DNA from: Candidatus Neomarinimicrobiota bacterium
GTDB taxonomy: Bacteria > Fidelibacterota > UBA2242 > B5-G15
Assembly (NCBI GenBank): GCA_017656425.1
Contig: JACDNV010000003.1
Span: 124,001 to 188,000, forward strand
Direction of reading: 5' to 3'
DNA length: 64,000 bases
Shown here: in pieces, positions 10,559-59,744 of the stretch
Layout: each line of letters starts with the position of its first letter
Position numbering within the stretch: the first letter of the stretch is position 1
Translations under genes and position numbers: made by a program
The notes under the pieces: model-generated
What the model was told of the DNA's origin: nothing
What the model saw: the letters and a program-made list of their open reading frames with translations, nothing else
Database searches by the model: none

Positions 10559-10571
10559 GGAAAAATTTCTA
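10559..10571. repeat. Degenerate copy of the 13-bp operon-junction inverted repeat
   Basis: GGAAAAATTTCTA: the left half and centre match the other copies but the final CC is lost. It lies 15 bases upstream of the -24 element of the flgF sigma-54 promoter. A weak member of the set on its own. Confidence 0.3.
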
Positions 10572-10689
10572 TTTAAGATTAAAACATTTATATTATATTG
10601 TTAATCAATGATTTATGAATTCTAATTACAAGCATATATTGATATAAAAACAATAAAGATTTGAGGTTAGGAATATTTTAACAAAGATG

Positions 10690-10702
10690 GGAAAGAATTT
10701 CC
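10690..10702. repeat. 13-bp operon-junction inverted repeat (flgF unit)
   Basis: GGAAAGAATTTCC, matching GGAAA-N4-T-N-CC. It lies 17 bases after the stop of the GAF-DHp gene and about 180 bases upstream of the flgF start point, a distance usual for enhancer sites of sigma-54 activators. Function is inferred from recurrence at other junctions. Confidence 0.5.
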
Positions 10703-10718
10703 GTGAATTTTTTACCTG

Positions 10719-11549
10719 TTATTCCTCAGGTAACTTTATCATTTTAATATCGCCAAAATACTTTTGATCTTTGAGCTCTCGAAGCTGACTCAATTTGTAG
10801 GTCACTTTCCTTATTCTTTTTGATTGTTCTAGAATTGCTCTTATACTTTCGCGTATCTTTTCAATACTTAGAGCAGGTAAGGAATATTCAAGTATTTCAG
10901 CGATATTAATAATAGATGTAAGAGGATTATTAATCTCATGGTTAATTGTAACAACAATTTCCCCGATAGCTGCAAGTTTTTCCTTCTCAACAAGTTCAGC
11001 CTGCAAATCTTTAAGTCTTCGCAGAGTTTTCTTTAAAATCCTGTTTTGTTTTTCAAGTTTACTTTTCATCTGAACTTTTTCAATTAGTACTGCCACATAA
11101 TTACCAAGGGTTTCATAGTCTTTTCTGTACTCAAGTTTATAAACCTCGGGTCTTTCATGAGCAAGGTTTAATACCCCTATCAATTTATTTTCTATTCGAA
11201 GTGGAATCGACAGGAAAGAAGAAAATCCATTATCCTGACAGGCTCTTGTCCTTTCCAGAGATGGTAGTATAATTGGTCTTTGATTTACAGAAGTCCATCC
11301 AGCTATCCCTTTCCCCTTTCCAAAATCGAAATCGCTTACAAGATCTACTATTACATTTCCCCTTTTATACTTAGGGACAATTCTATCCTCTTTTGCATCG
11401 TACAAGAAAAGTGTACATGCTGTAAAAGAAATAGTATTTTCCATAATATTAAAAATAGATTCGAAAAGTTTATCCCAGCTAACATCTTCCAACATTAAAT
11501 TGCTAATATCATGAAAAAGAGAATATCCAACTTTACCCATCAAACTCAT
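10719..11549 (-). CDS. GAF-domain protein with histidine-kinase DHp domain but no ATPase domain
   Basis: 276 residues. Residues about 20-160 form a GAF sensor domain, 160-195 a coiled coil, and 190-265 a HisKA dimerisation/phospho-acceptor domain with INHEINNPL and His204. The protein then ends; no HATPase motifs follow, and the 222 bases downstream hold no continuation in any frame. It therefore cannot autophosphorylate alone. The ATGA overlap with the complete PAS kinase upstream suggests the two are made together, so heterodimerisation or phosphorylation in trans is plausible (inference). It might instead be a cytosolic sensor that only dimerises. Confidence 0.8.
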   Translation of the reverse strand: MSLMGKVGYSLFHDISNLMLEDVSWDKLFESIFNIMENTISFTACTLFLYDAKEDRIVPKYKRGNVIVDLVSDFDFGKGKGIAGWTSVNQRPIILPSLERTRACQDNGFSSFLSIPLRIENKLIGVLNLAHERPEVYKLEYRKDYETLGNYVAVLIEKVQMKSKLEKQNRILKKTLRRLKDLQAELVEKEKLAAIGEIVVTINHEINNPLTSIINIAEILEYSLPALSIEKIRESIRAILEQSKRIRKVTYKLSQLRELKDQKYFGDIKMIKLPEE

Positions 11550-12754
11550 CCTTTATGCAATATTTCAATTAAATTTCTTAATTGGCTCGACTCACTTCTT
11601 TGCTCGAGTGGTAGAATAACCTTAAATGTAGTTCCTTCTCCTTCTCTTACTCCTACCTTTATATCCCCTCCCATGGAATTTATTATATTTTTACACATAG
11701 TCAGCCCAATGCCTGTATTTTTATCCACCTCTTTGGTTGTAAAGAAAGGTTCCCATATTTTATTTATTATGCTTTTATCAATACCTCCAGCATTATCCTC
11801 AACATATATCTCAATCCACTTCCCCGGGTTAACTCTCGTCATAATTTTTATATACTTAATTTCATCACGTCTCTTTGGATTATAGATAAAAGCATCTCGA
11901 GCATTAGAAATGAGATTAATCAAAACCTGCTCAATCAATAAAGGATTTGCCAGTATAAAAGGTAAACTATCTCTATGCTCCACCTTTAATTCAATACCAA
12001 GATTCCTTAGTTCATAAGAGAATATTTTAACCAAGTTATCAACTACATCCTGTATACTTACAAGCTCAAGAATATTTCCTTCAGTCTGCTGTGCAAACAA
12101 CCTCATACTATTAACAATACCAGTCATTTTACCAATCATTCTTTCAAAATCATCTATAAAGGACAGCAATTTATCCTTTGGTAACTTCCCTTTCTCCTTC
12201 AGTTTATTTTTTAGTAGCTCCAATCTCAGATTCATCGCATTTATCGGATGACTAATTTGATGTATCAAGCCAACAGTTAATTCACCAAGTGCCCTTAACC
12301 TATCTCTACTGACTGCGATAACCTGATTCCGTCTTAATTCCTTTTCCATTGCCTTAAACTCAGTAATATCTCTTATAACCATTATAATATAATCAACTTC
12401 ACCATCGCTATTCTTAATTGGACTAAATGAGATTAGCACATTGTTAACCTTTTGACCATTAACCAGATAACACTCGATATTCGTAAAAATTCCGCTACTA
12501 AGCTTATCTATAAGTGTCAAACGTTTTTTATTTTCAAAAAAATCTTCCTGTTCTTCAAATTCACCTTCATCTGCATCCATTATAAATTCATCAATAATCT
12601 TTCCCCTTATTTCATCAAATTTCACTTCCAACATATTAAGCACTGAACGATTGGCGTATTCAATCTTACCCTCTTTATTTAGTATAAATACACCATCGGA
12701 TATACTTTCAAGAATTAATACTGTTGTCTCATAATCTTTTATTTTGCTTCTCAT
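11546..12754 (-). CDS. PAS-domain sensor histidine kinase, candidate partner of the flagellar sigma-54 activator
   Basis: 402 residues, no membrane helices. PAS domain 10-135; HisKA with GLIHQISHPINAM, His165; HATPase with NLISNARDAF near 280-289, DNAGG at 320-324 and TGIGLTMCK at 347-355. The acidic residue normally after the phospho-His is Gln here; as I recall this HQ variant is also found in FleS/FlrB flagellar kinases. Its location at the end of the fliL-fliA operon, and the presence of an orphan NtrC-type regulator at 39207, make it the likely kinase for that regulator. SD GGGG precedes the ATG. Confidence 0.85.
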   Translation of the reverse strand: MRSKIKDYETTVLILESISDGVFILNKEGKIEYANRSVLNMLEVKFDEIRGKIIDEFIMDADEGEFEEQEDFFENKKRLTLIDKLSSGIFTNIECYLVNGQKVNNVLISFSPIKNSDGEVDYIIMVIRDITEFKAMEKELRRNQVIAVSRDRLRALGELTVGLIHQISHPINAMNLRLELLKNKLKEKGKLPKDKLLSFIDDFERMIGKMTGIVNSMRLFAQQTEGNILELVSIQDVVDNLVKIFSYELRNLGIELKVEHRDSLPFILANPLLIEQVLINLISNARDAFIYNPKRRDEIKYIKIMTRVNPGKWIEIYVEDNAGGIDKSIINKIWEPFFTTKEVDKNTGIGLTMCKNIINSMGGDIKVGVREGEGTTFKVILPLEQRSESSQLRNLIEILHKG

Positions 12755-12763
12755 AACCCCACT

Positions 12764-13033
12764 CTAATATACAACCAATTTTCCACTTTTGTATTCAATC
12801 TTGTTAAACTTCTCTCTGTTTATATCTACCAGAGATAACCTTGGAAACACCCTTTGAACCTTTAGTTCCATTTCTTCGCCAATTTGGAAATCTCTATTTG
12901 ATTCTACGTAAATATTTACTCCATATAACCTTATTATATATCTTTTATCACTAACCTTATCAATTACTCTGCATCTTACTAGGTCTCCGACTGAAAACCT
13001 TCTAAAAACTTTATAGTTACTGAAAAAGTTCAT
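12764..13033 (-). CDS. Small unknown protein, probable OB-like beta domain
   Basis: 89 residues, rich in beta-type hydrophobic alternation: VGDLVRCRVIDK, RYIIRLYGVNIYVESN, FQIGEEMELKVQRV, PRLSLVDI. This order (attach, value, gene-like strand, G-E-x-x-x-L-K-V) resembles the small OB-like segment found near the N-terminus of some FliK hook-length proteins. No catalytic motif is seen. It overlaps the stop of the 13030-13794 gene by 4 bases and precedes the PAS kinase by 9 bases, so it belongs to the flagellar operon. Function unknown. Confidence 0.7.
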   Translation of the reverse strand: MNFFSNYKVFRRFSVGDLVRCRVIDKVSDKRYIIRLYGVNIYVESNRDFQIGEEMELKVQRVFPRLSLVDINREKFNKIEYKSGKLVVY

Positions 13034-13794
13034 ATCCTGAAATCGATATTTTTATTATTCAGCTTACTCAAAATTTTTAACTCATCGTAGCTTAAATCTT
13101 GACTGCCATGTTTCAGCAAACTTGAACTACCAGTACTCTTGGAATTCTTTTCACCACGATTACTTTTGGAAGGTATACCAGATCTGCCCATATGATGGCT
13201 CTTCAATAGGATTAGAAGCTGTCTTGCGTGTTTGTCCCTGACAAGAAAATAAATTAATCCGATAACCATGAATAAAAAGGAAAGGAGGAACATGACTCTT
13301 GAAACAATTTTCAAATTTGTCATAAAAATAGCACTATTTTTAATCCTTTCAGCTGGATACTGTACCATCAAATTATCATTAAAGAAAGCAATACTTGGAT
13401 ACGTTATTTCAACTATATACTTATTTTCAAGAACATCGTAGGAAAAATTGGCACTTTTGAATGGTACTGTCATAATTTTAAACCTCACATAGAAAGAATC
13501 CATAACAGATGATTCAATTCTCAATATGGAATTTATATCTGATAACACTCCATATGTTATATACTCACTAATAGAGTTCCTATCAAAAGTTATATCCATT
13601 CTACCATTCTCAGGGTCTATTTTTATATCTGGCTTCATATAAATTTCTCCACCAGGAATAACAATAATTGAATTGCCTGTATTCCCTTTTATTTCCAATG
13701 TTTCAGCCTTCAACATTTTGCATGATATAATTATAAGTAGAAATAAAATACTATATAAAAATAAACCCTTTGATTTACCTTGCGAGAATGTCAA
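13030..13794 (-). CDS. Unknown exported, membrane-anchored protein
   Basis: 254 residues, not recognised. An N-terminal hydrophobic segment (LFLYSILFLLIIISC) looks like a signal peptide, the next about 130 residues are beta-rich, a transmembrane helix lies near 163-187, and a basic Ser/Asn-rich tail follows. Expected topology: periplasmic domain, one helix, cytoplasmic tail. The start is a TTG, chosen because GGAGGT lies 4 bases before it and no ATG exists before the end of the signal segment. It overlaps the 13775-14023 gene by 20 bases. Its operon position after fliA suggests a motility role. Confidence 0.65.
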   Translation of the reverse strand: MTFSQGKSKGLFLYSILFLLIIISCKMLKAETLEIKGNTGNSIIVIPGGEIYMKPDIKIDPENGRMDITFDRNSISEYITYGVLSDINSILRIESSVMDSFYVRFKIMTVPFKSANFSYDVLENKYIVEITYPSIAFFNDNLMVQYPAERIKNSAIFMTNLKIVSRVMFLLSFLFMVIGLIYFLVRDKHARQLLILLKSHHMGRSGIPSKSNRGEKNSKSTGSSSLLKHGSQDLSYDELKILSKLNNKNIDFRI

Positions 13795-14023
13795 TTTTAC
13801 CTCCTTTATTTTTAATACCTTTATTTATCTCTTCATCGATTTTCTTTTTCTCTTCCATTTTCTGATTCAAACTACTTATCTCTACCCTGTCTTTGTCCCT
13901 GGGCTTTTTCTTATTTTTATTATTTCTTTTTTCTCTCTTACTCTCCCTATCCACACCCCTAATCGAATGAATCGATTCAAGAGGATTCAAATCAGGAGAA
14001 GATACATTATCATCTAATGGCAT
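13775..14023 (-). CDS. Small charged protein directly after fliA; candidate divergent FlgM anti-sigma factor
   Basis: 82 residues, highly charged and probably disordered. The C-terminal half reads DRVEISSLNQ, then KKIDEEINKGIKNKGGKID, which resembles the FlgM layout: a D-x-V-E-I-S motif followed by an amphipathic helix pair ending in G-x-Y/K-x-I-D. It ends soon after this point, so it lacks the last FlgM residues. It overlaps the fliA stop by 14 bases and has SD GAGG. No other FlgM candidate was seen, although FlgM usually lies next to flgN. The similarity is short and could be coincidental. Confidence 0.4.
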   Translation of the reverse strand: MPLDDNVSSPDLNPLESIHSIRGVDRESKREKRNNKNKKKPRDKDRVEISSLNQKMEEKKKIDEEINKGIKNKGGKIDILAR

Positions 14024-14795
14024 TTCTTTCCTCTACTTTTTTTCTCAATAACCTTAACGTCTCATTTAAAATTTGCGAGACCCTTGATTCACTTACACCC
14101 AATACAAGACCAATATCAGCAAGTGTCAGCTCCTCATAGAAATACAATGCAAGAATCAATCTCTCCCTTTCATCTAACTCTTTAATGATATTCTTTAGAT
14201 AAGATTTCAAATCATCAAATTCAACTTTTTCTTCTGGGTTCATCTGGTCAGGATCAACTATCCTATCCTTAATTCTGATGCTATCCTCACCATCCTTATA
14301 CAGTTTATCGTCAAGAGACAAGGTATAACCAATGTCTATGATTTGCTGAATTTTAAAATATTCCTCTTCTGATATATTAACTTCTTTACAAATTTCCTCT
14401 ACGGTAGGCTCTCTCTTAAGTTTACTTCTGAGACGTTCAAGACCATCATTTAATTTCATTATTGATTTAACCTGACCTCTATTAAGAGCAGTTTCTCTTC
14501 TTATAGCATCAATTATTTCTCCGTATATTCTTTTATATGCAAAGGTTTTAAAACTAACTCCATATGAGAGATTATATCTCTCAAGGGCTTCAAGCAATCC
14601 TATTATGCCATATTGATATAAATCTTCTTTTTTTAATATCCAATTTTCAGGTATATGTAATCTACCCACTATATGCTTTATTAGGTTTATGTAGGATTTA
14701 ATAATCCTCTCTTTTAAACTTTCATTTTTTGTCGTTATATACTCCCTTACAAGATATTCAGCATCTTCCCGGATTTTTAATTTTTCATTCAGCAT
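14010..14795 (-). CDS. fliA: RNA polymerase sigma factor FliA (sigma-28)
   Basis: 261 residues. Region 2 is seen as LKKEDLYQYGIIGLLEALERYNLSYGVSFKTFAYKRIYGEIIDAIRRE; region 3 as EPTVEEICKEVNISEEEY; region 4 as ELTLADIGLVLGVSESRVSQILNETLRLLRKK, a helix-turn-helix reading the -35 box. Directs transcription of late flagellar genes. The only strong sigma-28 promoter visible here is inside flgL. Encoded after flhG and a small membrane protein, an arrangement common outside the enterics. Confidence 0.96.
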   Translation of the reverse strand: MLNEKLKIREDAEYLVREYITTKNESLKERIIKSYINLIKHIVGRLHIPENWILKKEDLYQYGIIGLLEALERYNLSYGVSFKTFAYKRIYGEIIDAIRRETALNRGQVKSIMKLNDGLERLRSKLKREPTVEEICKEVNISEEEYFKIQQIIDIGYTLSLDDKLYKDGEDSIRIKDRIVDPDQMNPEEKVEFDDLKSYLKNIIKELDERERLILALYFYEELTLADIGLVLGVSESRVSQILNETLRLLRKKVEERNAIR

Positions 14796-15033
14796 TTACT
14801 TTATTTCCTTCTTCTTTTTTTGCCTGTTCAACATTTTCTTTTTGACCTATTTCTTTCGGTCTCAATGCTACTGCCATTACTGCACTTGCGATAAAGAATA
14901 TAAACAATACACCTACAAACACAATTAGGGAACGGATAATCGATGTAAAAAGAGAAATATTGCTTAGTAGACAGAGTATAAATGTCAGAATTGAAATTGA
15001 AAGGGCAATACTATAAATAATTTTGGTTATCAT
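14785..15033 (-). CDS. Small two-helix membrane protein of unknown function
   Basis: 82 residues, not recognised. Two hydrophobic helices (about residues 7-27 and 31-56) are followed by a charged Lys/Glu-rich cytoplasmic tail. Start and stop overlap both neighbours (4 bases with flhG, 11 with fliA), so it is an integral part of the operon. Nothing else can be deduced from the sequence. Confidence 0.7.
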
Positions 15034-15905: not shown

Positions 15906-15911
15906 AACACC

Positions 15912-25082: not shown

Positions 25083-25097
25083 TCAAATTTTATGCCA
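25083..25097 (-). promoter_or_regulatory. Possible sigma-54 promoter of fliL operon with variant -12 element
   Basis: TGGCATAAAATTTGA: good -24 element, correct spacing, but the -12 reads TTGA instead of TTGC. It would start transcription near 25071, 43 bases before fliL. The 271-base gap 25029-25299 contains no gene. Confidence 0.35.
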
Positions 25098-25256: not shown

Positions 25257-25269
25257 GGAAATATTTGCC
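25257..25269. repeat. 13-bp operon-junction inverted repeat (fliL unit)
   Basis: GGAAATATTTGCC, matching GGAAA-N4-T-N-CC, 31 bases after the motB stop and about 230 bases before fliL. It differs by one base from the copy at 40653. Confidence 0.5.
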
Positions 25270-26771: not shown

Positions 26772-26800
26772 ACTATTCCCATATTTTTAAGAAAATGTAT

Positions 26801-26834
26801 GTCCAGCGTGGGAGCAATTACTACCACGCTGGAC
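26801..26834 (-). terminator. Strong hairpin between flgE and motA (attenuator or mRNA processing element)
   Basis: GTCCAGCGTGG and CCACGCTGGAC form a perfect 11-bp GC-rich stem with a 12-base loop, starting 26 bases after the flgE stop. No uninterrupted U-run follows on the minus strand (ATACATTTTCTT), so it is either a leaky terminator lowering motAB relative to flgE or a 3'-end stabiliser. The heptamer TCCAGCG is directly repeated at its upstream edge. Confidence 0.5.
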
Positions 26835-26860
26835 GCTGGATTTTAAAAATACAATTTCAA

Positions 26861-28786: not shown

Positions 28787-28805
28787 AATGACCCTCCTTT
28801 CCTAT

Positions 28806-28859
28806 TATCCACCTCAGTCGATCGGTGGATAGAGGGCCCCCCTAACCGGGACCGGCCCT
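28806..28859 (-). promoter_or_regulatory. Structured 5' leader of flgE (two adjacent hairpins)
   Basis: Two hairpins in tandem: AGGGCC/GGCCCT at 28833-28859 with a nested CCC/GGG pair, and TATCCACC/GGTGGATA (8 bp, 10-base loop) at 28806-28831. Between hairpin 2 and the ATG lie two GGA motifs, the second (AAGGAG, an ANGGAN match) being the Shine-Dalgarno. The GC-rich block stands out in this A+T-rich DNA. Candidate regulatory RNA or stabiliser; I cannot assign it to a known class. Confidence 0.5.
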
Positions 28860-28883
28860 ATTTTTGTCTTTAGTTTCTTTGTT

Positions 28884-37820: not shown

Positions 37821-38117
37821 TTAGCCTTTTACATCCAAAAGCTTCCCTTTGACAATTTGATCAATATTAACTTTACTACTATAGAAATTGAATTCTTCCG
37901 GTTTACTATATCCAAATAGGAAATACAGCGTTATTTTCTCCTCCTCAGTCAATAATTCTTTACCTTTTTTTTCATTTAAAATTTCCTCATTTTCGATAAT
38001 CTTTAAATTATCGGAAAATTTATCCTGCAGGTTTTTCTCATCTCTAATTAACTTCTCCGACTTATTAAATTCTTTAATAAGGTTGTTATAATTGTTTATT
38101 ACATCATTGATTTTCAT
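37821..38117 (-). CDS. Unknown 98-residue protein between flgC and fliE
   Basis: Not recognised. Charged, helical N-terminal half (residues 1-60), then ITLYFLFGYSKPEEFNFYSSKVNIDQIVKGKLLDVKG, a short ordered C-terminal tail. No signal peptide or membrane helix. 7 bases after flgC and 10 before fliE, so co-expressed with the rod genes. The tail looks conserved-domain-like and could be an export or assembly motif; no function can be assigned. Confidence 0.7.
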   Translation of the reverse strand: MKINDVINNYNNLIKEFNKSEKLIRDEKNLQDKFSDNLKIIENEEILNEKKGKELLTEEEKITLYFLFGYSKPEEFNFYSSKVNIDQIVKGKLLDVKG

Positions 38118-38618: not shown

Positions 38619-39062
38619 CTATAATTTCCCTTTAATACTTGAATTTAATTTATCATAAATACCTCTTAAGACCCTTGTCACGAAATCATGTCTTACCTGG
38701 TTTTCAGCTAATTCTGACATTTCTCTATTAATGTCGACTTCGGAATCACCTTTCTTTATACTCAATGTGCTCTCTGTTATTTCATCAGGTAGACCTTGCA
38801 CGTGCTTATTACGCGTGATATGTAGTTTTGATAATTTTTCCTCTGTCTGTAGAATATGTCTGAAATCGGTATTTTTCCGCCTATAATATGGATTAGCAAC
38901 ATTTGAAATGTTTTCCGAAATAGCCTCGTGCTGCTTTTCAAGCGCCTTTATCGCTCTCTTTACCAAGTTTATATATTCATTATCGATCAAGTTCACACTC
39001 ATACCAATTTTAACATATCCAATATCTGTGCCATAAATATATTTCTTTGGTTTTAATTCCAT
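38619..39062 (-). CDS. flgB: FlgB, proximal rod protein
   Basis: 147 residues from the ATG at 39062. KALEKQHEAISENISNVANPYYRRKNTDFRHIL is the FlgB/rod signature, and VDINREMSELAENQVRHDFVTRVLRG the C-terminal one. The first 21 residues extend beyond the usual FlgB start; an ATG at 38999 (MSVNLIDNEY) would fit the family better. Neither start has a strong Shine-Dalgarno. First gene of the flgB-motB operon. Confidence 0.93.
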   Translation of the reverse strand: MELKPKKYIYGTDIGYVKIGMSVNLIDNEYINLVKRAIKALEKQHEAISENISNVANPYYRRKNTDFRHILQTEEKLSKLHITRNKHVQGLPDEITESTLSIKKGDSEVDINREMSELAENQVRHDFVTRVLRGIYDKLNSSIKGKL

Positions 39063-39170
39063 AAAATATTACAATCTCGTATTGCATTGTATTTCAATTT
39101 ATTATTGGATTATGCTTATTTATAAAGGACTAAATATAGCTGTTATATTTTGTTGGGGATACTTTAAAAG

Positions 39171-39183
39171 GGAAAAATTTTCC
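39171..39183. repeat. 13-bp operon-junction inverted repeat (flgB unit)
   Basis: GGAAAAATTTTCC, fully palindromic apart from the centre base and embedded in a longer imperfect palindrome. It lies 24 bases after the stop of the sigma-54 activator gene and about 110 bases before flgB, in a 144-base gap with no gene and no clear sigma-54 or sigma-28 promoter. Confidence 0.55.
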
Positions 39184-39206
39184 ACTTTAATGAATTATTA
39201 TCAGTC

Positions 39207-40586
39207 TTATACAAATTCCTCAGGTAGCAAGCCAAGTTTCCTGTATTCATTTAATTTATTACGCAGTGTCCTGACGCTAATTCCCAGTAATTTTGCTGCG
39301 TGAGTTCTGTTGTTTCGTGTCTTCTTCAAGGCATTAAATATAAGTTTGCGTTCCATTTCCGCAAGACTCATAACATAGTCAAATTCACTCGTTTCCTTTG
39401 AACCAATCTCATCTATTTCCACCTGTAAATGTTTCCGCTTTATAACACTTTCTTCTCCACTTAATAGTATTGCCCTTTTTATTACATTCTCCAGCTGTCT
39501 TATATTTCCAGGCCAACGGTACTTCATCAAATGACCTATAGTTTCAGGATCAACCCTCTTTTCTCTACAATTATTATATTTATCCCCATACTTTCTAATA
39601 AAATGCTCTACAAGTAAAGGTATATCCTCTATCCTCTCTCTTAGCGGTGGGATATAAATAGGAAACACATTCAGCCTAAAAAACAGATCCTCTCTAAACT
39701 TACCACTGACAACTAGTTGTTTAATGTCTCTATTTGTGGTAGCTATTATTCTTACATCAACAGGGATTTCCTTTGTGGAACCGACCCTAGTAATTTTACC
39801 CTCTTGTAAAACTCTGAGTAGTTTAACCTGCATTGAAATAGGTATTTCACTTATTTCATCAAGTAAAAATGTCCCTCCATTGGCTTCCTCGAACATTCCT
39901 TTAAATGTTCGCATGGCGTTTGTAAAAGCACCTTTCTCATGACCAAAAAGAGTACTTTCGAAAAGTGTCTCTGGTATAGCGGAACAATTAACCCTTATAA
40001 ATGGACCATCATTTCTATCACTACTATAATGAATTGCCTCAGCAATTAATTCTTTTCCAGTACCACTTTCACCCTGGATAAAAACAGGCATATCTGTCCT
40101 TGCAACAATATCAATCTGCTCGAGAATTTTCTTAATAACCTCACTTTTCCCCACTATCTTTTTGTATTTTTCCTCCCTATCCAGTTTTCTCTTTAGCTCC
40201 TTATTTTCATTTTTCAAATACTGATAGTTGAAAAAGTTTTCTATCCTGGTCTTTAAATGAGATATCGAAAAGGGTTTGGTAATAAAATCGTATGCACCCT
40301 TTTGAAGTGCTTCAACAGCTCTTTCCACTGTTCCATACGCTGTAATTATAAATACTCCTATCCCCGGATATTTTATCTTTATAATCTCCAGTAACTTAAT
40401 TCCATCCATGCCTGGCATCATAAGATCAGATATAACGAGATCATAACTATTTTCCTCGAGCATATTCAGTGCAGTCTCACCATCCTTGGCATCAGAAACT
40501 TCATAACCTGATTCTTCCAGAGCTTCTTTTAAAATTGTCCTCATACTATAATCATCTTCAACTATTAGTAATTTTTTCCCAGGCAT
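39207..40586 (-). CDS. NtrC/FlrC-type sigma-54-dependent response regulator
   Basis: 459 residues. Receiver domain 1-115 with phospho-acceptor Asp54 and Lys104; AAA+ domain with GESGTGKE at 172-179, GGTFLLDEI at 237-245 and R-finger region; Fis-type helix-turn-helix at the C-terminus (NNRTHAAKLLGISVRTLRNKLNEYRK). The loop that contacts sigma-54 reads GAFTNA (219-224) rather than GAFTGA. It has its own transcription unit in the middle of the locus and is the obvious activator of the flgF sigma-54 promoter. Likely partner: the PAS kinase at 11546-12754. Confidence 0.92.
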   Translation of the reverse strand: MPGKKLLIVEDDYSMRTILKEALEESGYEVSDAKDGETALNMLEENSYDLVISDLMMPGMDGIKLLEIIKIKYPGIGVFIITAYGTVERAVEALQKGAYDFITKPFSISHLKTRIENFFNYQYLKNENKELKRKLDREEKYKKIVGKSEVIKKILEQIDIVARTDMPVFIQGESGTGKELIAEAIHYSSDRNDGPFIRVNCSAIPETLFESTLFGHEKGAFTNAMRTFKGMFEEANGGTFLLDEISEIPISMQVKLLRVLQEGKITRVGSTKEIPVDVRIIATTNRDIKQLVVSGKFREDLFFRLNVFPIYIPPLRERIEDIPLLVEHFIRKYGDKYNNCREKRVDPETIGHLMKYRWPGNIRQLENVIKRAILLSGEESVIKRKHLQVEIDEIGSKETSEFDYVMSLAEMERKLIFNALKKTRNNRTHAAKLLGISVRTLRNKLNEYRKLGLLPEEFV

Positions 40587-40652
40587 AACCCCCTACCTAT
40601 CCAATAACTAACAAAAATTAATAATATTATATTAATACGTAAATAAAAATAT

Positions 40653-40665
40653 GGAAAAATTTGCC
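40653..40665. repeat. 13-bp operon-junction inverted repeat (sigma-54 activator unit)
   Basis: GGAAAAATTTGCC, 13 bases after the stop of the 40678 gene and 67 bases before the start of the activator gene, in a 91-base gap. Autoregulation by the activator would be possible. Confidence 0.5.
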
Positions 40666-40677
40666 TAATTTACAATT

Positions 40678-41235
40678 TCACTTAGGCTCTTCTTCATCTT
40701 TTATATCATAGGCTCTTGATAGAGTCTCGCGGTCTGCTCCAACTTTTTTATATATTTCTCCAGGTATGTTTCTTTTTATATCAGTCGATGGAATTAGCTT
40801 TTTGACTTCCTTTTCAAGATTCTCTTTCTCTTTTTTCAAATTTGAAATTTGACTATCTTTGGATTTTAGTTCACGGCGCATTTTAAAATATCTGGTAGCT
40901 ACTTTGATGGCTACCGCCACCAACTCCGATCTAATTGGCTCCATTATAAAAAAATCGGCAATTCCCTGATCAAATAGTTCCTTTACGTCTAAAACCTGGG
41001 TGATATCATAAGTTATTATAACAAACCGATTCTCAAGACTAAGTATAAATTGTTTTAACTGCTGATTAATTAAGGAATTTTCAATAACAATGATAAAAAA
41101 TTCCTGATTATTTTTTTCGATCTCGGAGATACCATTATATATCTTGATATCAGCTTCTATATCTTCGATGGAATATTTTACAAGTTTTCTTAAATATTCA
41201 TTAGATGTTATTACGCACAGATTTATATTGTCCAT
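40678..41235 (-). CDS. Pseudo-receiver protein with coiled-coil tail
   Basis: 185 residues. Residues 1-115 have receiver-like alternating strands and helices (INLCVITSNEYLRKLVKYSI, FFIIVIEN, FVIITYDI, DQGIADFFIMEPIRSELVAVAIKVATRYF), but the acidic pocket and phospho-acceptor Asp are missing (Glu at the strand-3 end: VIEN). A coiled coil at 115-148 and a disordered tail follow. Probably a phosphorylation-independent adaptor. It is joined by overlap to the 41235-42587 gene (1 base), suggesting joint function. Confidence 0.7.
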   Translation of the reverse strand: MDNINLCVITSNEYLRKLVKYSIEDIEADIKIYNGISEIEKNNQEFFIIVIENSLINQQLKQFILSLENRFVIITYDITQVLDVKELFDQGIADFFIMEPIRSELVAVAIKVATRYFKMRRELKSKDSQISNLKKEKENLEKEVKKLIPSTDIKRNIPGEIYKKVGADRETLSRAYDIKDEEEPK

Positions 41236-42587
41236 TATGAAATAATTGATTTAAAAAGATTTTCTTTAAGGCTTATAAATATATCTCCGAATTTTTCGCC
41301 ATCTTCTGGATAGTTTGCAAATCCGTATGCTAAGGCAATATAACTTTTCTTAACTTGATTAAAATATTTATCCTTTATTCTCTTTCTAATTTCCTCATAT
41401 CCCTTCTCGATGTCAATTGGATGTAATCTGGGTATAGCTACAATCAAAGTATCTATGCCATCGTTTAAGACCTCTATATCACTACCGAACTTATTTTTTA
41501 TCTCAGATTCAACGTCACTTAAAACTGCATTTATATCTTTGGTTTCATCAAAATCCACTATAGGAATTAACCTAACAAGTGAAAAAGTCACACCTTCGTT
41601 GAGATTTTGAGCCTCACGTAATTTATCTCTAATCAGCTTTTGAACGACACTCTCATAATTTGATTCGGTTTTGATTCCCCCGCAGATCATTCCAATCGCT
41701 GGCGCAATTTGTATTGAGATAATACTCCAGAGTTTTATATAATCCTCGATAGAAAAAACACCATCACTAGGCAGGTCAAAAACACAAAGGAATCCATATA
41801 CCTCATCCATATACTTTATTGGAACTACAAAAGATAAACCATAATCTTCTTTTATATCCAGACTTCTTGAACCAACCTTTATCTCCTTATTAAGTTTATC
41901 CAAAACTATTATCTCTTCACCATTGATCTTTTTCCCATTAATTTCTTCTCCTAAGGAGAAATAAAAATTTTTACCAAACTTATCAGAAATGCCATGTGAG
42001 GAATCAACAACGAACCTATCCCCCTTCTTTAAAAGGAGCGCCATCTTTTTAATTTTCAATCCTTCGGTTATTGTATCAATTATGATACCTTTTGCAAAGT
42101 CTACATTATCAACCTGATAAAGTATAGAACAAACCTCATAAAGTGTAGTTACAGTATAAAGCATTTCTTTCATTTTATTTGTAAGCGCAGAATTTTCTCT
42201 GCTCAGATATAACTTTTCTGCAGCTCTATTTAAAACTACAAGGAGTTCCTTCAAATTAAATGGCTTACGTATATAATCATACACCCCATATTTTATTGCT
42301 TCGATTGCACTATCTGTGGTTGCAAAACCTGTAATTATTATAACCTGAGAATCCTTGTTTAAATCTTTTAACTTTTTTACTATATCCATACCAGTAAAAT
42401 GAGGCATTACTAGGTCAGTAAGTATTATATCGAAGTTCTTTTCTTCAATCATTGACATAGCCACTTTAGAATCGTCAGTTACCTCCACATTATATCCTTT
42501 TTCAGATAAAAAGAATTTCAATTGATCCAATATTAATTTTTCATCATCAATAATTAATACTTTTACATCCTCAGGTTTAATTTCCAT
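41235..42587 (-). CDS. Response regulator with GAF domain and degenerate GGDEF output
   Basis: 450 residues. Receiver 8-125 with DD14-15, Asp58 (ILTDLVMP) and Lys108; a GAF-like domain at about 150-305; and a C-terminal domain 320-447 with GGDEF-like ends (FSLVRLIPIVDFDE ... SYIALAYGFANYPEDGEKFGDIFISLKENL), while the catalytic GGDEF motif is replaced by VLNDGIDTLIVAIP. So it should not make cyclic di-GMP. Co-encoded with fapA and the pseudo-receiver, it may relay phosphorylation to an adaptor complex. Function inferred only. Confidence 0.78.
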   Translation of the reverse strand: MEIKPEDVKVLIIDDEKLILDQLKFFLSEKGYNVEVTDDSKVAMSMIEEKNFDIILTDLVMPHFTGMDIVKKLKDLNKDSQVIIITGFATTDSAIEAIKYGVYDYIRKPFNLKELLVVLNRAAEKLYLSRENSALTNKMKEMLYTVTTLYEVCSILYQVDNVDFAKGIIIDTITEGLKIKKMALLLKKGDRFVVDSSHGISDKFGKNFYFSLGEEINGKKINGEEIIVLDKLNKEIKVGSRSLDIKEDYGLSFVVPIKYMDEVYGFLCVFDLPSDGVFSIEDYIKLWSIISIQIAPAIGMICGGIKTESNYESVVQKLIRDKLREAQNLNEGVTFSLVRLIPIVDFDETKDINAVLSDVESEIKNKFGSDIEVLNDGIDTLIVAIPRLHPIDIEKGYEEIRKRIKDKYFNQVKKSYIALAYGFANYPEDGEKFGDIFISLKENLFKSIIS

Positions 42588-43959: not shown

Positions 43960-43974
43960 TTTAATGTCACCACA

Positions 43975-44211
43975 TCATTTATATTCAAAATACACTTCTG
44001 CTTCATTTCCACAACCACATATGAATTTAATGCCCACAATTTCATCACCATCATAAATTGGGTCAATTTTTACTTCACGCTCTTTCTTTAAATCACCACC
44101 TATAATTTTTTTATCACCTTTAACAGAAGCACTTTTTAATACCTTTGGAATTCTTTTTGCACTTTCCTGTATAAAAGGCAAATCTTTTAAAATATCAGAT
44201 TTATTTTTCAT
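43975..44211 (-). CDS. Unknown 78-residue protein with Cys-Gly-Cys-Gly motif
   Basis: Not recognised. Basic N-terminal 45 residues, then IDPIYDGDEIVGIKFICGCGNEAEVYFEYK, a compact C-terminal strand pair containing CGCG. This could bind a metal with only two Cys per chain if it dimerises, but no further Cys are present. It overlaps the CheZ-like gene by 4 bases (translational coupling), so it probably works with that phosphatase or with FapA. Confidence 0.65.
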   Translation of the reverse strand: MKNKSDILKDLPFIQESAKRIPKVLKSASVKGDKKIIGGDLKKEREVKIDPIYDGDEIVGIKFICGCGNEAEVYFEYK

Positions 44212-46114: not shown

Positions 46115-46134
46115 AATATTTCATTCTCAATTTC

Positions 46135-46149
46135 TCAAATCAAATGCCA
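46135..46149 (-). promoter_or_regulatory. Sigma-54-like element with TTGA -12 box upstream of the HDOD-cheY unit
   Basis: TGGCATTTGATTTGA, same TGGCAT-N5-TTGA form as the fliL element (25083). A start near 46124 would leave only a 9-base leader before the ATG at 46114, so this is a weak call. Confidence 0.25.
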
Positions 46150-46200
46150 AATACATTCTCAGTCATGTTAGTACTTCCCATAAAAAGCAAATAGGGAATT

Positions 46201-49450: not shown

Positions 49451-50116
49451 TCACAAATTCAATATATTTTGCCTGCTTACATACTCAATTGCTTTATAAG
49501 ATGTTATCTTTGATAATCTGTTAACAATATCAACAACTATTTCCATCTGTCTGTTTATAATCTTTATAATCTCAAGTACCTTCTCATACTCACCTTTATC
49601 AAAAAGGGGATATATCATTTCGAAATAACCGGACATTACCTGTAAAGGCTGATTTAACTCATGACATACAGCTCCCGTAAGCTCCAACATCCCTTTTAAT
49701 TTTTCTCTTTCCATAAATTCATATTTAACCTTACTCTTTTCTAAAGCTAATAATAAAGTCTTCACAAATAATCCAACCTGTAAAGTCTCCCTTATCAAAT
49801 AATCATCTGCTCCATTCTTTAAAAAATCCATAATTAAACTTTCGCTATCCTTCATAGAAACAAGAACAACAACAGGTAAGTCTTTATATGTACTCCTGAA
49901 AATTTTGAACCGCCCAATTCTATCGCCACTTTCAATAATTGAATCATATATAACTAAATCTATACCATTAAAAATATTTCGATTTTTGCTTTCCATATGA
50001 TAAACACACCCAACAAAAAAGGTGATCTTCTTATAATTATTCAAAACCGACATTAAGGTTTTACTGAACTTATCATCATCTGATACTATTTTAATTTTAA
50101 ATGGATTATTCTTCAT
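49451..50116 (-). CDS. Receiver-like protein with orphan HisKA (DHp) domain and no ATPase
   Basis: 221 residues. Residues 5-125 are receiver-like with Asp58 (VIYDSI) and a Lys-to-Arg change at ADDYLIRE. Residues 140-210 are a HisKA domain with CHELNQPLQV, His152. It ends there, with no HATPase domain; cheR starts in overlap (11 bases) so there is no missing part downstream. This is the second DHp-only protein of the locus (see 10719). It may be phosphorylated in trans by CheA or the PAS kinase, or serve as a phosphohistidine relay. Inference. Confidence 0.78.
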   Translation of the reverse strand: MKNNPFKIKIVSDDDKFSKTLMSVLNNYKKITFFVGCVYHMESKNRNIFNGIDLVIYDSIIESGDRIGRFKIFRSTYKDLPVVVLVSMKDSESLIMDFLKNGADDYLIRETLQVGLFVKTLLLALEKSKVKYEFMEREKLKGMLELTGAVCHELNQPLQVMSGYFEMIYPLFDKGEYEKVLEIIKIINRQMEIVVDIVNRLSKITSYKAIEYVSRQNILNL

Positions 50117-53576: not shown

Positions 53577-53600
53577 TTTTATTGTAATAATCCCAAATAA

Positions 53601-56228
53601 TTAAAAATCTTCCAGGTTCTCAAGATTATCATTAAAAGGGATTATCTCCTCTGGTTTTAGCTTCTTCTTCCCAACCATTTCCTCTTTCTTCTCTTCTATA
53701 TCCATAATTTCTTTTTTTCTTGCTTTCTCTTTTACACCTTTTTCAATATTACTCTTTTTAATGACTTCCTTTTTTTCAAACCTTCCACTTAGTCTGAATG
53801 ATCTTATCATTGTTGATAATTCCTGAGACTGAATATTTAACCTTCCTATAATATTTGCCACTTCTTCTGATTTCGACGCATTTCTCTGAGTCACTGTATT
53901 CATCTGGCTAACAGCTACATTCACCTGTTCAATACCTTCTGCCTGCTCCTTACTTGCAGCCGCTATCTCCTCAATTATCTGCAATACCTTATTAGCACTC
54001 TCCGCTATCCTATCAAATACCTCTATCGTCCTGTTTACCTTCTCTACACCCCTGTCTGCACTCCTACCTGAACCCTCTATCATTACTGCCGTATTCTTCG
54101 CCGCCTCCGCTGACCTCTGTGCTAAATTCCTTACCTCCTCTGCTACTACCGCAAACCCTTTCCCTGCTTCTCCTGCTCTCGCCGCCTCTACCGCCGCATT
54201 CAACGCTAACAGATTCGTCTGAAACGCTATCTCATCTATCGTGTTCACTATCTTACTCGTCTCTACCGAACTCTCCTTTATCTGCTTTATCGCTTCCTCT
54301 AACTCCCTTATTGCCTCTCTCCCCTCCTTTATTACCCTGTCTGACTCATTCATCATCACTCTCGCTTGACCTGTATTGTCTGCATTCTGCTTCACCATAC
54401 TGCTCATCTCTTCCAAACTGCTCGATATCTCCTCAAGTGAACTCGCCTGCTCATTTGCACCCTCCGCCAAACTCTGACTGCCTGCATAAACCTGATTTGT
54501 CGCTGACAGTACCTCACTGGTAACAGCTGAAACACTTGACAAAGCATCCTCCAAGGAATCCAGAGTTTTATTTATATCGTTTTTTAACTCATCAAATTTA
54601 CCCATATATTCTCCTTTAATACGATGTGTAAAATCCTTTTTAGCTGCGCTATTCATAACCTCAGAAATTTCTTCTATGGGTGTTTTTATACTGCCAACAA
54701 GTCTGTTGAGACCCTCAACAAGGCTTATATATTTCCCTTCAAATTTACTCTCATCTATTTTTACATCAAGATTACCACTACTAATCTCTTCAATCATATT
54801 GTTCAGATTCTCCGTGACATCTAATAAAACCTGCTTCATCCTTGACAATGCTCTTCCAATAGTATCCTTATCTGATCTTATATTAACTTCTACACTTAAA
54901 TCTCCGTGAGAAATACTACGAATTTTTTCAGCCTGATCTCTAAGAGATGAAATTAAAGACCTTAAACTATCAGCTAATAAACCAATTTCATCATCAGCCT
55001 GGTAATCCACTTCTTGATCCAGATCCCCCATTGATATAGCTTTCAATGTCCTATTAAAATATTCAATGGGCTTTAATACTTTTGTCTTGTATCTTCTAGA
55101 CATAGTTACCGCTGTTGCAAAAAATACAAAGGTTATAATGACTATAATCCCTAGTGTTACCCATTTAACAAAGCTGACACCACCACTGGCAGAGATAAAA
55201 TCACGTTCAAAAGCATTTGCAACAATTACCCAGTCCCATGGTTCAAAATATTTTATGCCGGCTAAATATCTCTCGGAAGATTTTTGTTCACCAAGCGAAT
55301 AATCAATGAATAATATATCATTTTTCTTATCAATCGATTCAGTGATCATTTTCTGAATAATATACCTGTCCTTATTGTCTTTCATACTCCACAGGATTTT
55401 GCCAGTTTCAAATGAGCCACCAGAAATTAAACATCTACCCCTATCGATCCCTTTCCCCTTTATTATGGATATATATCCATTCTTTCCAACATTTGTACTT
55501 TTAATCAGCTCTACCAAATCTGTCAAATCATATCCTTTAGTAATAGAAATCATACCAATTACAGAACCTTCATTTGTTGATAGTGGCATATAAGCATCTA
55601 TTAACATGGTTTTATTATTTATTCTATAGGTATAATAATTTTCACCTTTCAGAATATTAGTAATTATTGGATTTGCTATTCCTGATTGGCTCTTGTTCGG
55701 GATCAACACCCCAAGATTCTTCAGATCTTCATTATTATTTGTAGCAACCTTAATCATATTTCCATCTATATCTATTCTTTGGTAAAAAGCAACTTCTCCA
55801 TCTGTGTCAGAAAGTCTCGCAAACAAAGGGTTAATCGTACTTAAGTTATTAATACTATTCAAAACTATTTCAGAAACTTTTATCTCGGGTAAGTTGACAT
55901 CACGTACCACCTTACCACTATAGTCTTTCAAACCCCAAGTATGTTGTACAGAAGAATTAACATCCAATTCTTCTAAATTCAGTAAAATTTTTATCTTATC
56001 AAGGTCTCTATCTGCATTGTTCCTAATAGATTCTTCTCTATCTTCAATTAATTTATACACAAGGTTAGCGACTTGTTCTATATTTAATTTCATTAAGGAT
56101 TTATTTTGTACAATATTAAACACATCACCTTTTTGATTTATTAAACTAAGTATCAATACAAAAATTACAACAGACATGAGTACAAATAAGGTTATATAAA
56201 TCCATCTGTTTTGCAATGAAAGCTTCAT
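53601..56228 (-). CDS. Methyl-accepting chemotaxis protein (receptor 2) with dCache-type sensor and HAMP array
   Basis: 875 residues. Membrane helix at about 13-33, a large periplasmic dCache-type domain to about 350 ([53 protein letters not shown]), second helix near 356-376, then HAMP units and the same signalling domain as receptor 1 (DNA identical at 53920-54486). It carries a long Lys/Glu-rich tail ending NLEDF. Both receptors thus share the last residues EDF. The 104-base gap upstream holds GGGGGACAG before the ATG. Confidence 0.95.
53920..54486. repeat. 567-bp perfect direct repeat, copy 2 (chemoreceptor signalling domain)
   Basis: Identical to 51221-51787. Ends at the same codons. 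Likely the product of recent gene conversion between receptor genes. Confidence 0.95.
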
Positions 56229-56332
56229 ACGTAACTGTCCCCCAAGTTTGGAAATTTAAAATAATTCTTAAAGTATTTATAATAAACATTTATTTTGAGC
56301 TTAACATATACAATCATCATTTTAATAGACTA

Positions 56333-56923
56333 TTACTTCTTCTTCTTTTTAGCAGACTTCCCTTTTTCAGCCTTCTCCGCCCCCGTCTCCAGCTTATCTT
56401 TAATGTCCGCAATCTTGGTAACCTCATCTGTACTCAAAATTTTGTCAATATTCAATAGTATCTTGATACCATCTTTCGCCTTTGCCATTCCCAATATGAA
56501 ACTGGTATCTATTTCAGCTCCAAAGGAAGGGGCATCCTCTATATCATTTGCCTCAATATCAAGAACCTCAGAAACATTATCAACGAGTAATCCAGCCTGT
56601 ACAAGGGTATCATTTCTATATACGTCGACCACAATTATACAAGTATCCTCGGTAATCTCAGCCTCCTCCAGTCCAAATTTTTTCCTTAAGTCAACAATTG
56701 GAATAATCTTTCCACGAAGATTTATAACCCCCCTTACAAAATCGGGAGTCCTTGGTACATAGGTTATATCCATTACTCCAATTATTTCTCTAACCTTTAG
56801 TATTTCAATCCCATACTCTTCATTGCTAAGTTTAAAAGTCAAATATTTCCCCGCCCTGCTTTTGTTTCTTTCGTTTTTTGTATTTTTTACTTCTAACTCT
56901 TCATTTTCAACATTAATGGGCAT
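56333..56923 (-). CDS. cheW: CheW, receptor-kinase coupling protein
   Basis: 196 residues. CheW fold from about 28 to 165: YLTFKLSNEEYGIEILKVREIIGVMDITYVPRTPDFVRGVINLRGKIIPIVDLRKKFG. A basic tail ends in KSAKKKKK, an extension beyond ordinary CheW of about 160 residues. Two-base gap to cheA. Confidence 0.96.
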   Translation of the reverse strand: MPINVENEELEVKNTKNERNKSRAGKYLTFKLSNEEYGIEILKVREIIGVMDITYVPRTPDFVRGVINLRGKIIPIVDLRKKFGLEEAEITEDTCIIVVDVYRNDTLVQAGLLVDNVSEVLDIEANDIEDAPSFGAEIDTSFILGMAKAKDGIKILLNIDKILSTDEVTKIADIKDKLETGAEKAEKGKSAKKKKK

Positions 56924-56925
56924 AA

Positions 56926-59574
56926 TTACCTCCCAATCACCTTTTCAATTACATTTGACTCTCTCGATAATCTTATAAGTCCTGCAACATCAATTATAAG
57001 CCCAACTCGACCATCTGGCATAATAGCACCACCAGAAATGCCAGGGACTTTTTTTAACAAAGTACCAAGCGGTTTTATCACTACCTGTTGCTGACCAATT
57101 AAATCATCAGCAAGAATGCCAACTTTTATATTCTCTGATTCGACTACAACAACAAGAGCATTGTAGGGGTCTTCCTTGGCATTTTCAATATCAAAGAGCT
57201 TATAAAGCCTGATAAGAGGTAAAAGCTCTCCATGAAAAGAGATAATCTCGCCTTTTTTCATTAATGTACTTATATCATTATTTCTTGGACGAAAAGTAGT
57301 AACAACCGAAAGTGTCGGTATGATATACCGCTCACTTCCAACTTTAATTACCATTCCATCAATAATCGCTAGTGTAAGGGGTAAAATTAACCGAAAAGTC
57401 GTACCTTCACCAGACTTAGTATAAACATCAATCCTGCCTCTTATTGACTCAATATTTCTCTTAACCACGTCCAGACCTACACCCCTTCCAGATACGTCTG
57501 TTACAACATCAGCAGTAGAAAAACCTGGGGAAAAGATCAAATTCCATACTTCATTATCGGATAATTCTTTATCTTCCTTAACAAGTCCCCTTTCAATAGC
57601 TTTTCTTAATATTTTGTCTCTATCAAGTCCCTTACCATCATCTGAAACTTCTATTATGATATTGCCACCTCTGTGGTAAGCTCTGAGTTCAATTTTTCCA
57701 TACTCTGGTTTGCCCCTTTTTATACGTTCCTCAGGATTATCTTCTATACCGTGATCAATTGAATTTCTTATCATATGAACAAGAGGGTCACCAATTTTGT
57801 CAACAACCGATTTATCAAGTTCTGTGTCCTCACCATAGGTTACAAATTCAATCTTCTTCCCCGCTTTCTTGGATAAATCACGTACCAATCTTGCCATTTT
57901 TTGAAAAGTAGATTTTATCGGGATCATTCTTAATGAAGTACCGAGCTCCTGTAATTCCCGTGTGATTTTATCAAGTTGCGAAACATATTTTGCAAGCCTT
58001 GGTGATTCAATACTTTTTACTTCAGGTGCTTGAGTAACCATTGATTCAGCAATAACCAACTCACCTATTGTATCTACTAACCTATCAAGTCTATCAGCAT
58101 CGATTTTTATAATCTCTTTCAGCTTTACTTTTTGTACCTCAACATCAGCTTTTTCCACTTCAGGGCTGACATCAGGTGCTATATGTTGATCATCTTTGCT
58201 TTTTTCATCCTGGGCCGGCTCTTCAACGACAGTGGCAGTCTCTTCATCCCTATCCTTAGGCTGTTCTTCTTTAACTTTCTTTTGTCCCAAAACTGGTTTC
58301 TTTTCTTCTACCCTTTCCTCCACTTCTATAATACCTTCATCAACAAGCCTGATTAAATTTTCTATATCTTTTATAAGTTGATAGAATTCTCGCCCTTGAG
58401 GCTTAACTACTCCTGTTTTTGTAACCTCTTCAAGATCCTTTATCATTTCTTTCAACTTATCGACAGCTCTAAAAACCAAATCAATATTTTCCCCTTCCAA
58501 TACTACTTTACCGTTTCTGGCTTTATCCAGAAGATTCTCAGCTCTATGGGACAACTCTTGTATTTCTTTTAACCCGATAAAGCCTGCAACTCCTTTAATT
58601 GTATGAAAAGATCGAAATACAGCATTTAATGCTTCAGCGTTCGAAGGGTCATTCTCAATTGTCAAAAGATTCAAATCAGCATTTTCAATATGCTCATTTG
58701 CTTCGTTAATAAAATCAGGTAACAACTCTACATCTACACTGTAAGGCTCTACGACTTCGAATTCTTCCTCTGGTTCTTCCTCTGGTTCTTCAATCAGTAT
58801 CGGTTCCGATTTTTCCTCATTTACAATTTCTTCCTTTTTTCTCTTTTCCTTCTTCCTTTTTTTCTTCTTTTTCACCTTCCTTTCTTTTTTATCTCCAGGT
58901 TCCAATAAACCTATTATCTCTTTGACATGAGTGTAAGCATCTCTCTGCCCTGAATAATATTCAACAACCTCTTCACACCAGTCTTTGACCCTATATAAAA
59001 TATCAACATCAATATCTTCATTATCCGATAAAAAATCCTCCAGTGCATGACAGACTTTATTCAGATCATCTACTCCTACAAGCCCCGATTCACCTTTTAT
59101 TGTATGAATTATTCTCTTTAATTGATTTAGATCTTCCTGTTTACCAGTATTTTCATAATCAAGAATTAAATTTTCGATTTCCTGAAGATTACCTTCAAGA
59201 GATGTGATAAACTCCTCAAATATGCTTTTATCAACCACTTCATTATATTCGAATACTTCTTTCCTTTTATTTTTACCTCTTTCACTATCACGAACAATTG
59301 AATTTATAAGAGTTTGCAGATCTGAAAATCTTTTTGAGACTTCATTAAAAACCTCTGCAGGACTATCTGTTTCCCCAACTATTATCTTCTCAATAGTAGC
59401 TTTAAGCCACTCAACATGATCATTAATTTGTTTATTTTTTAAATCAGAGCTCAGTTTTTCAACCTTATCCAGATCATTTAAAATTTCACCAAGAACAGGC
59501 AGATCTGAAACATCGGTAAGAACAATTTTTTCTCCAAGCCTTTCCAATAGGCTAACTAAATCATTTTTACTCAT
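56926..59574 (-). CDS. cheA: CheA, chemotaxis histidine kinase with two Hpt domains
   Basis: 882 residues. Two Hpt domains: one with IIHTIKGESG (His157) and one with SFHTIKGVAG (His324), separated by a Lys/Glu linker. A helical N-terminal region of about 110 residues precedes them. Then dimerisation (P3), HATPase with MIRNSIDHGIEDNPEERIKRGKP, DDGKGLD and GRGVGLDVVKRNIESIRG, and a CheW-like P5. No P2 CheY-binding domain is recognisable. The double Hpt would allow two separate phosphoryl pools for the two CheYs. It is the first gene of the chemotaxis unit. Confidence 0.95.
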   Translation of the reverse strand: MSKNDLVSLLERLGEKIVLTDVSDLPVLGEILNDLDKVEKLSSDLKNKQINDHVEWLKATIEKIIVGETDSPAEVFNEVSKRFSDLQTLINSIVRDSERGKNKRKEVFEYNEVVDKSIFEEFITSLEGNLQEIENLILDYENTGKQEDLNQLKRIIHTIKGESGLVGVDDLNKVCHALEDFLSDNEDIDVDILYRVKDWCEEVVEYYSGQRDAYTHVKEIIGLLEPGDKKERKVKKKKKRKKEKRKKEEIVNEEKSEPILIEEPEEEPEEEFEVVEPYSVDVELLPDFINEANEHIENADLNLLTIENDPSNAEALNAVFRSFHTIKGVAGFIGLKEIQELSHRAENLLDKARNGKVVLEGENIDLVFRAVDKLKEMIKDLEEVTKTGVVKPQGREFYQLIKDIENLIRLVDEGIIEVEERVEEKKPVLGQKKVKEEQPKDRDEETATVVEEPAQDEKSKDDQHIAPDVSPEVEKADVEVQKVKLKEIIKIDADRLDRLVDTIGELVIAESMVTQAPEVKSIESPRLAKYVSQLDKITRELQELGTSLRMIPIKSTFQKMARLVRDLSKKAGKKIEFVTYGEDTELDKSVVDKIGDPLVHMIRNSIDHGIEDNPEERIKRGKPEYGKIELRAYHRGGNIIIEVSDDGKGLDRDKILRKAIERGLVKEDKELSDNEVWNLIFSPGFSTADVVTDVSGRGVGLDVVKRNIESIRGRIDVYTKSGEGTTFRLILPLTLAIIDGMVIKVGSERYIIPTLSVVTTFRPRNNDISTLMKKGEIISFHGELLPLIRLYKLFDIENAKEDPYNALVVVVESENIKVGILADDLIGQQQVVIKPLGTLLKKVPGISGGAIMPDGRVGLIIDVAGLIRLSRESNVIEKVIGR

Positions 59575-59710
59575 TTCACATACCTGAAAAATCTCCCCAA
59601 AAATACAATTTTAGGATGTAAAAAAGCCATTAATTTTTTGTCAAAATCTATGCCTTAAACAAAGTCAGACGTATCAATTCCATTGAATCACAATAATTTT
59701 TAAAAGAGGT

Positions 59711-59723
59711 GGAAATTTTTACC
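59711..59723. repeat. 13-bp operon-junction inverted repeat (cheA / hybrid kinase divergent gap), site 1
   Basis: GGAAATTTTTACC in the 269-base divergent gap 59575-59843, which contains no gene. Its centre is 21 bp from site 2, two helical turns. Confidence 0.5.
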
Positions 59724-59731
59724 GAACTACA

Positions 59732-59744
59732 GGAAAGGAATTCC
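59732..59744. repeat. 13-bp operon-junction inverted repeat, site 2
   Basis: GGAAAGGAATTCC. Together with site 1 it forms a pair on the same face of the helix, 138 and 159 bases before and after the divergent starts of cheA and the hybrid kinase in round terms. Confidence 0.5.

Follow-up and report, generated by a model that had tools for sequence, protein, structure and literature searches.

A conserved 13-bp inverted repeat as the probable enhancer of a sigma-54 flagellar and chemotaxis regulon in a Candidatus Neomarinimicrobiota bacterium

A stretch of 64,000 nucleotides from a Candidatus Neomarinimicrobiota bacterium (GenBank assembly GCA_017656425.1, contig JACDNV010000003.1, positions 124,001 to 188,000; hereafter the window) was analyzed for a 13-bp inverted repeat that recurs in the gaps of its motility locus. 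These repeats are very probably the enhancers of a sigma-54 flagellar and chemotaxis regulon, and the protein most probably binding them would be the FlbD/NtrC-family regulator encoded at 39207-40586. The sites, their conservation, their pairing with promoters and the geometry of that pairing, as well as the match of the regulator's recognition helix, were obtained directly. Six sites that a preliminary description had placed in the locus were all recovered where it put them and share the pattern GG-N-A(A/T)-N3-(A/T)T-N-CC. The sigma-54 promoters, which are absent from that description, account for the arrangement of the sites. The features are as follows, with the enhancer roles being putative.

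10690..10702 (-): enhancer site of the flgF/flgG operon, GGAAATTCTTTCC as read on the minus strand, 158 bp upstream of the -24 GG
10530..10544 (-): sigma-54 promoter of flgF/flgG (9780-10496 onward), TGGCAGTGTTATTGC
25257..25269 (-): enhancer site of the fliL-fliM...flhB-flhA operon, GGCAAATATTTCC
25083..25097 (-): sigma-54 promoter of the fliL operon, TGGCATAAAATTTGA
39171..39183 (-): enhancer site of the flgB-flgC-fliE-fliF operon, GGAAAATTTTTCC
39019..39033 (-): sigma-54 promoter of flgB, TGGCACAGATATTGG, within the over-called N-terminus of open reading frame 38619-39062
38619..39002 (-): flgB with corrected start, without a Pfam hit and named because it lies upstream of flgC
39207..40586 (-): regulator of the NtrC family, receiver, AAA+ and Fis-type helix-turn-helix domains, FlbD-type recognition helix, GAFTNA loop
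40653..40665 (-): site in the gap upstream of the regulator itself, GGCAAATTTTTCC, proposed autoregulation
59711..59723 (-): first of the two cheA enhancer sites, GGTAAAAATTTCC, with 68 bp between it and the -24 GG
59732..59744 (-): second of the two cheA enhancer sites, GGAATTCCTTTCC, with 89 bp between it and the -24 GG
59641..59655 (-): sigma-54 promoter of the cheA operon, AGGCATAGATTTTGA
46135..46149 (-): sigma-54-like promoter of the HDOD/cheY/cheZ genes, TGGCATTTGATTTGA, in the gap 46115-46200

The homologues of open reading frame 38619-39062 align from its residue 21, so that the true start of flgB lies near 39002 (the shortened protein starts MSVNLIDNEY...), the frame having been over-called by 20 codons, and the flgB gap is therefore longer than it first appeared. 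With this start the five site-bearing gaps total 1055 bp, in agreement with the approximately 1 kb given previously, and they contain six sites where dinucleotide shuffles predict 0.03; all five gaps were filled in none of 5000 shuffles. Over the whole window the pattern GGAAANNNNTNCC gave 16 strand-hits (13 places) compared with 2.1 in shuffles, an enrichment of about 7-fold, and 16 hits were not reached in any of 100 shuffles. This enrichment is local, because the genome as a whole shows no enrichment of the pattern (118 occurrences vs 108 for the reversed control) and its palindromic form is in only mild excess (72 vs 51). The 21 bp separating the centers of the cheA pair and the decayed copy at 10559, whose letters are GGAAAAATTTCTA, were also as described; the decayed copy, to which no role is assigned, precedes the flgF/G promoter by about 15 bp. 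Two earlier statements stood only in part. The claim that every junction carries a site holds for the five gaps, but not for the other gaps of the locus, since no 13-bp site was found at 26772-26860, 28787-28883, 43960-44207 or 46115-46200. Likewise, of two matches reported within coding sequence, the one at 8876 was recovered, while the letters at 38013 (GGAAAATTTATCC) fall outside the pattern; the coding matches in the window are at 7809, 8876, 14019, 15828, 27070, 30237 and 31356.

A sample of about 20 further matching places in the genome outside the locus was inspected. Nearly all of these were inside genes, the three that were intergenic had no adjoining sigma-54 promoter, and a density in unrelated intergenic DNA equal to that of the locus, which the preliminary description had named as evidence against an operator, was not seen in this sample. 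Several individual matches were considered and rejected: one intact site, upstream of the window at G000:C3:123428, falls within an asparagine-synthase-like gene, four perfect palindromes (C1:124446, C2:22351, C16:37939 and C18:21948) are all coding, and two other palindromes lie between convergent genes (C3:64464) and amid sugar/glycosyltransferase genes (C27:10459).

Except in the gap of the regulator itself, each site-bearing gap (four of five) has a TGGCA-N6-TTG(A/C/G) sequence between the site and the gene, with a -12 element of GC or GA, or GG at flgB. The distance from site to promoter ranges from 68 to 336 bp and is mostly 130-190 bp; at flgB it is 147-162 bp in five genomes. Such a layout of site and promoter is the standard enhancer architecture of sigma-54 systems (PMC4641369). 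The genome encodes rpoN (PF04552, E value 8.4e-59), and sigma-54 promoter-like matches number 62 genome-wide vs 15 for the control. The site and promoter arrangement of flgF/flgG is also present in the relatives G004, G017 and G030, and orthologues of this promoter read TGGCAATATTCTTGC, TGGCAACCTTCTTGC and TGGCATTCAAATTGC. The fliL promoter reads TGGCATAAATTTTGA in G018 and G009, TGGCACGAATTTTGA in G004 and, as in the window, TGGCATAAAATTTGA in G002 and G003, while TGGCATAGYAATTGA is found 28-47 bp upstream of flgB in relatives. The promoter at 46135-46149 is conserved in G001 and G018.

The sites recur at the same junctions in relatives, a comparison that the preliminary description had proposed, although the DNA flanking the conserved sites has diverged. 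This applies to genomes whose regulators are 56-62% identical to that of the window and also to more distant ones. The palindrome was found at the flgB junction in G018, G003, G030, G004 and G028, at the fliL junction in G018, G004, G009, G030 and G017 (with relaxed forms in G002 and G003), at the flgF/G junction in G017 (relaxed forms in G004 and G030) and at the cheA junction in G007. The HDOD gene is preceded by a site pair in G018 and by relaxed forms in G002, G003 and G006. Comparable to the cheA pair of the window, pairs 22-23 bp apart occur in G030, G018 and G034. In the regulator's own gap the site was kept in the one genome of the same family, G001 (L219:12092, GGAAAATATTTCC), though the rest of the gap has diverged. 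Among 27 orthologous operon-head regions, 12 contained a strict site, against 0.35 in shuffles, and 19 a relaxed site, against 0.95; this set involved a mild selection, in that flgF/G matches lacking a sigma-54-like sequence were left out as hits on paralogous rod genes and one match for cheA was left out as well. Regions upstream of operon-internal genes contained a site in three of 36 cases, and in their own genomes two of these three (G023 and G034) head an operon and have a sigma-54 promoter. When all inverted repeats with 5-bp arms and gaps of 0-12 were ranked, GGAAA-N3-TTTCC came first, being present in 12 of 32 regions, and the runner-up, GAAAT-N1 (7 regions), overlaps the same core. 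In an alignment of 26 sites read toward the gene, position 3 was not A in seven, while position 11 was T in all; this asymmetry is possibly a polarity of the operator, the numbers being small.

The protein encoded at 39207-40586 has the receiver, sigma-54 AAA+ and Fis-type helix-turn-helix architecture of FlbD-type proteins. Its recognition helix, NNRTHAAKLLGISVRTLRNKLNEY, fits the FlbD pattern NRTHAA..LGIS.RTLRNKL and is identical at 18 of 24 positions to that of Maricaulis FlbD and at 19 of 24 to that of Pseudokordiimonas; both of these alphaproteobacterial flbD genes adjoin flhA. Flagellar orthologues from other families of the phylum have the same type of helix; the paralogues do not. Orthologues of the regulator 56-62% identical to it were found in ten relatives in the first search, and two more were partial at a contig edge (G004, 63%) or cut off at a contig end (G001). 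In the tree, which was rooted at the midpoint and has an open fork and long branches, the flagellar regulators and FlbD fall on one side (91/90). The score of the regulator against the NCBIfam FlbD equivalog NF050807 is 373 bits, under the cut-off of 750, and it is therefore not filed as an FlbD orthologue by that model.

The published FlbD site is CCCGGCAxxxxxTGCCGGG and that of DVU1063 is GGCAxxxxTGCC (PMC3333781). The frame of the present operator, GG-N-A-N5-T-N-CC, is the outer frame of the FlbD sequence GGCA-N5-TGCC (PMC3333781). Because the helix matches that of FlbD and the FlbD operator has the same frame, the NtrC-type activator is the best candidate for the binding protein, and because this match is joined by co-location, the 39207-40586 protein is the most likely one to bind the sites, judging from sequence. 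The preliminary suggestion of an operator for the NtrC-type activator at 39207 thus gains support from conservation, from the helix and from the shared frame.

Binding, looping and activation are what we infer from this arrangement. The activator would occupy sites that precede the promoters by approximately 70-190 bp, and a DNA loop would bring its AAA+ ring to the sigma-54 RNA polymerase, which would be contacted at the TGGCA-N6-TTG(A/C/G) promoters of flgB, fliL, flgF/G and cheA. The site at 40653, downstream of which no sigma-54 promoter was found in the regulator's gap, would most likely serve autoregulation of the regulator gene.

Several observations weigh against assigning the sites to this regulator and its sigma-54 regulon. 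Residues 219-224 of the protein read GAFTNA rather than the near-invariant GAFTGA, and according to a study of NorR most activators of this kind are severely impaired by substitutions in GAFTGA (PMC2941729). The present sites mostly have A at position 3, where FlbD prefers C. Near the HDOD promoter at 46135 this genome has no 13-bp site, unlike G018, and neither the flagellin genes nor the distant MCP gene yielded one. The genome also holds 39 NtrC-family matches to the window regulator, so another protein of that family could bind. This count, together with a 40653 site that stands without a sigma-54 promoter as a repressor site could look, would suit sites that are real operators of some other DNA-binding protein, whether a different NtrC-family activator or a repressor. 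We consider this improbable, since the FlbD-type helix coincides with an FlbD-type site frame, the regulator is encoded within the flagellar locus and adjoins the conserved flgB site where that junction is assembled, and the enhancer distance to the sigma-54 promoters fits activators of the regulator's class.

The preliminary description had also noted that several sites follow a stop codon and had raised an RNA 3'-end role. Four window sites do lie about 12-31 bases past a stop codon, as an RNA 3'-end or processing element beyond the upstream gene would, but the distances in relatives contradict this idea: at the flgB junction of five genomes the upstream stop is 23, 399, 170, 112 and 44 bp away, whereas the promoter is always at the 147-162 bp given above. 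No gene end precedes the cheA pair, RNA folds predicted at four sites were no better than shuffles (z of 0.06, -0.77, -0.88 and 0.35), no terminator-like site was found at 39000-41300, and the sites do not have the stable hairpin and following T run, tied to a stop codon, of an intrinsic terminator. A role at RNA ends is therefore very hard to sustain. Chance is scarcely credible: AT-rich gaps might be expected to yield such palindromes, and the absence of more than a mild genome-wide enrichment would agree with this, but the number of sites in the gaps (6 vs 0.03) and in the relatives (19 vs 0.95) and their conservation at orthologous positions contradict it.

The altered loop of the regulator was compared across genomes. 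Orthologues of the clade in which the loop could be read have G(A/S)FT(N/S/H)A, and the glycine is kept in G023, G028 and G034, whose flagellar regulators are more distant, and in all paralogues examined. In NorR the substitution G266N, at the same residue, still activates, and N or D there gives a constitutively active, competent protein (PMC2941729). We tentatively suggest, as a possibility that we regard as doubtful, that the whole clade has lost the second glycine of GAFTGA (giving GAFTNA, GSFTNA, GAFTSA or GAFTHA) while keeping the FlbD-type helix and operator. In the orthologue of G025, a relative in which flhA was not found, the loop is GSLTNG, and this regulator lies near CheW-like genes and a site, GGAAATATTTTCC (L011, L126-L127). 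The sigma-54-like promoters of the genome that contains the window (G000), flagellar or not, mostly have TTGA rather than TTGC at -12; the intergenic ones at L269, L276, L283, L298 and L307 read TTGA, and only L321 reads TTGC. A pairing of the GAFTNA loop with a special TTGA element at flagellar promoters was considered and rejected, and no link between loop and -12 element is claimed because TTGA appears to be a genome-wide feature.

The gene content of the locus was assigned by Pfam, which identified FlgF/G (9780), FliL (24348), MotB (25300) and CheA (56926), as well as FlhB, FliI, FliF, FlgC, FlgE, FlgI, FlgK, CheZ, CheB, CheD, CheW and MCPs, a FliA-type sigma factor (14010), an HDOD protein (45233), a hybrid kinase at 59844, kinase-like proteins at 10719/11546 and the domains of the regulator at 39207-40586. 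The genes that we take to be flhA, fliM and fliP were named from general operon knowledge together with tblastn matches. The proteins encoded at 10719-11549 (GAF-HisKA) and 49451-50116 (receiver-HisKA) have a HisKA domain with no HATPase domain detected, and are candidate partial kinases in the flagellar locus.

The closest known system is that of FlbD and its ftr enhancers in Caulobacter crescentus, which likewise consists of a sigma-54 flagellar regulon, an NtrC-family activator and sites with the same outer frame, and the recognition helix is nearly identical to the helices of the two FlbD proteins compared here, both alphaproteobacterial. FlbD acts through ftr sites as an activator as well as a repressor (PMC3930126), a precedent for the autoregulation proposed here. 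The present regulator differs in its GAFTNA loop and in its receiver, which is not of the atypical FlbD type: it keeps E10-D11, D54, T and K, its acidic and phospho-acceptor residues being canonical, whereas the FlbD receiver is atypical and that of Maricaulis FlbD is degenerate. Unlike Caulobacter, which uses no such factor (PMC3930126), this locus encodes a FliA-type sigma factor (14010-14795), and it also contains histidine kinases, unlike the Caulobacter FlbD system. Desulfovibrio vulgaris DVU1063 is a non-alphaproteobacterial FlbD homologue with GGCAxxxxTGCC at flagellar sigma-54 promoters (PMC3333781, PMC4641369). Its spacing is written as 4 rather than the 5 found here, its receiver is atypical, and in that study most of the sites located downstream of promoters, by 40-70 bp, are those of DVU1063, in contrast to the upstream sites of the window.

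Pseudomonas FleSR pairs a kinase with a phosphorylatable NtrC-family sigma-54 activator that controls the middle flagellar operons. Vibrio FlrBC resembles the present system in the same way, with a phosphorylatable NtrC-family regulator acting on middle flagellar operons through sigma-54 (FlrC: PMC3930126). Both likenesses concern the type of regulator rather than its kinase partner or operator sites.

As read from sequence, the regulatory scheme would be a known kind of control, here seen in this lineage and conserved among relatives. It offers a complete though putative wiring diagram for flagellar control in the lineage, consisting of activator, operator, promoters and operons and common to relatives, and would carry the FlbD-like recognition code further than the examples from Caulobacter and Desulfovibrio in the papers cited here. 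If the clade-wide loss of the GAFTGA glycine is true, the loop would be the equivalent, fixed in nature, of the G266N/D bypass mutants of NorR in a flagellar-assembly activator that is gated differently, and this fixed substitution would provide a natural case for the gating of the sigma-54 contact loop.

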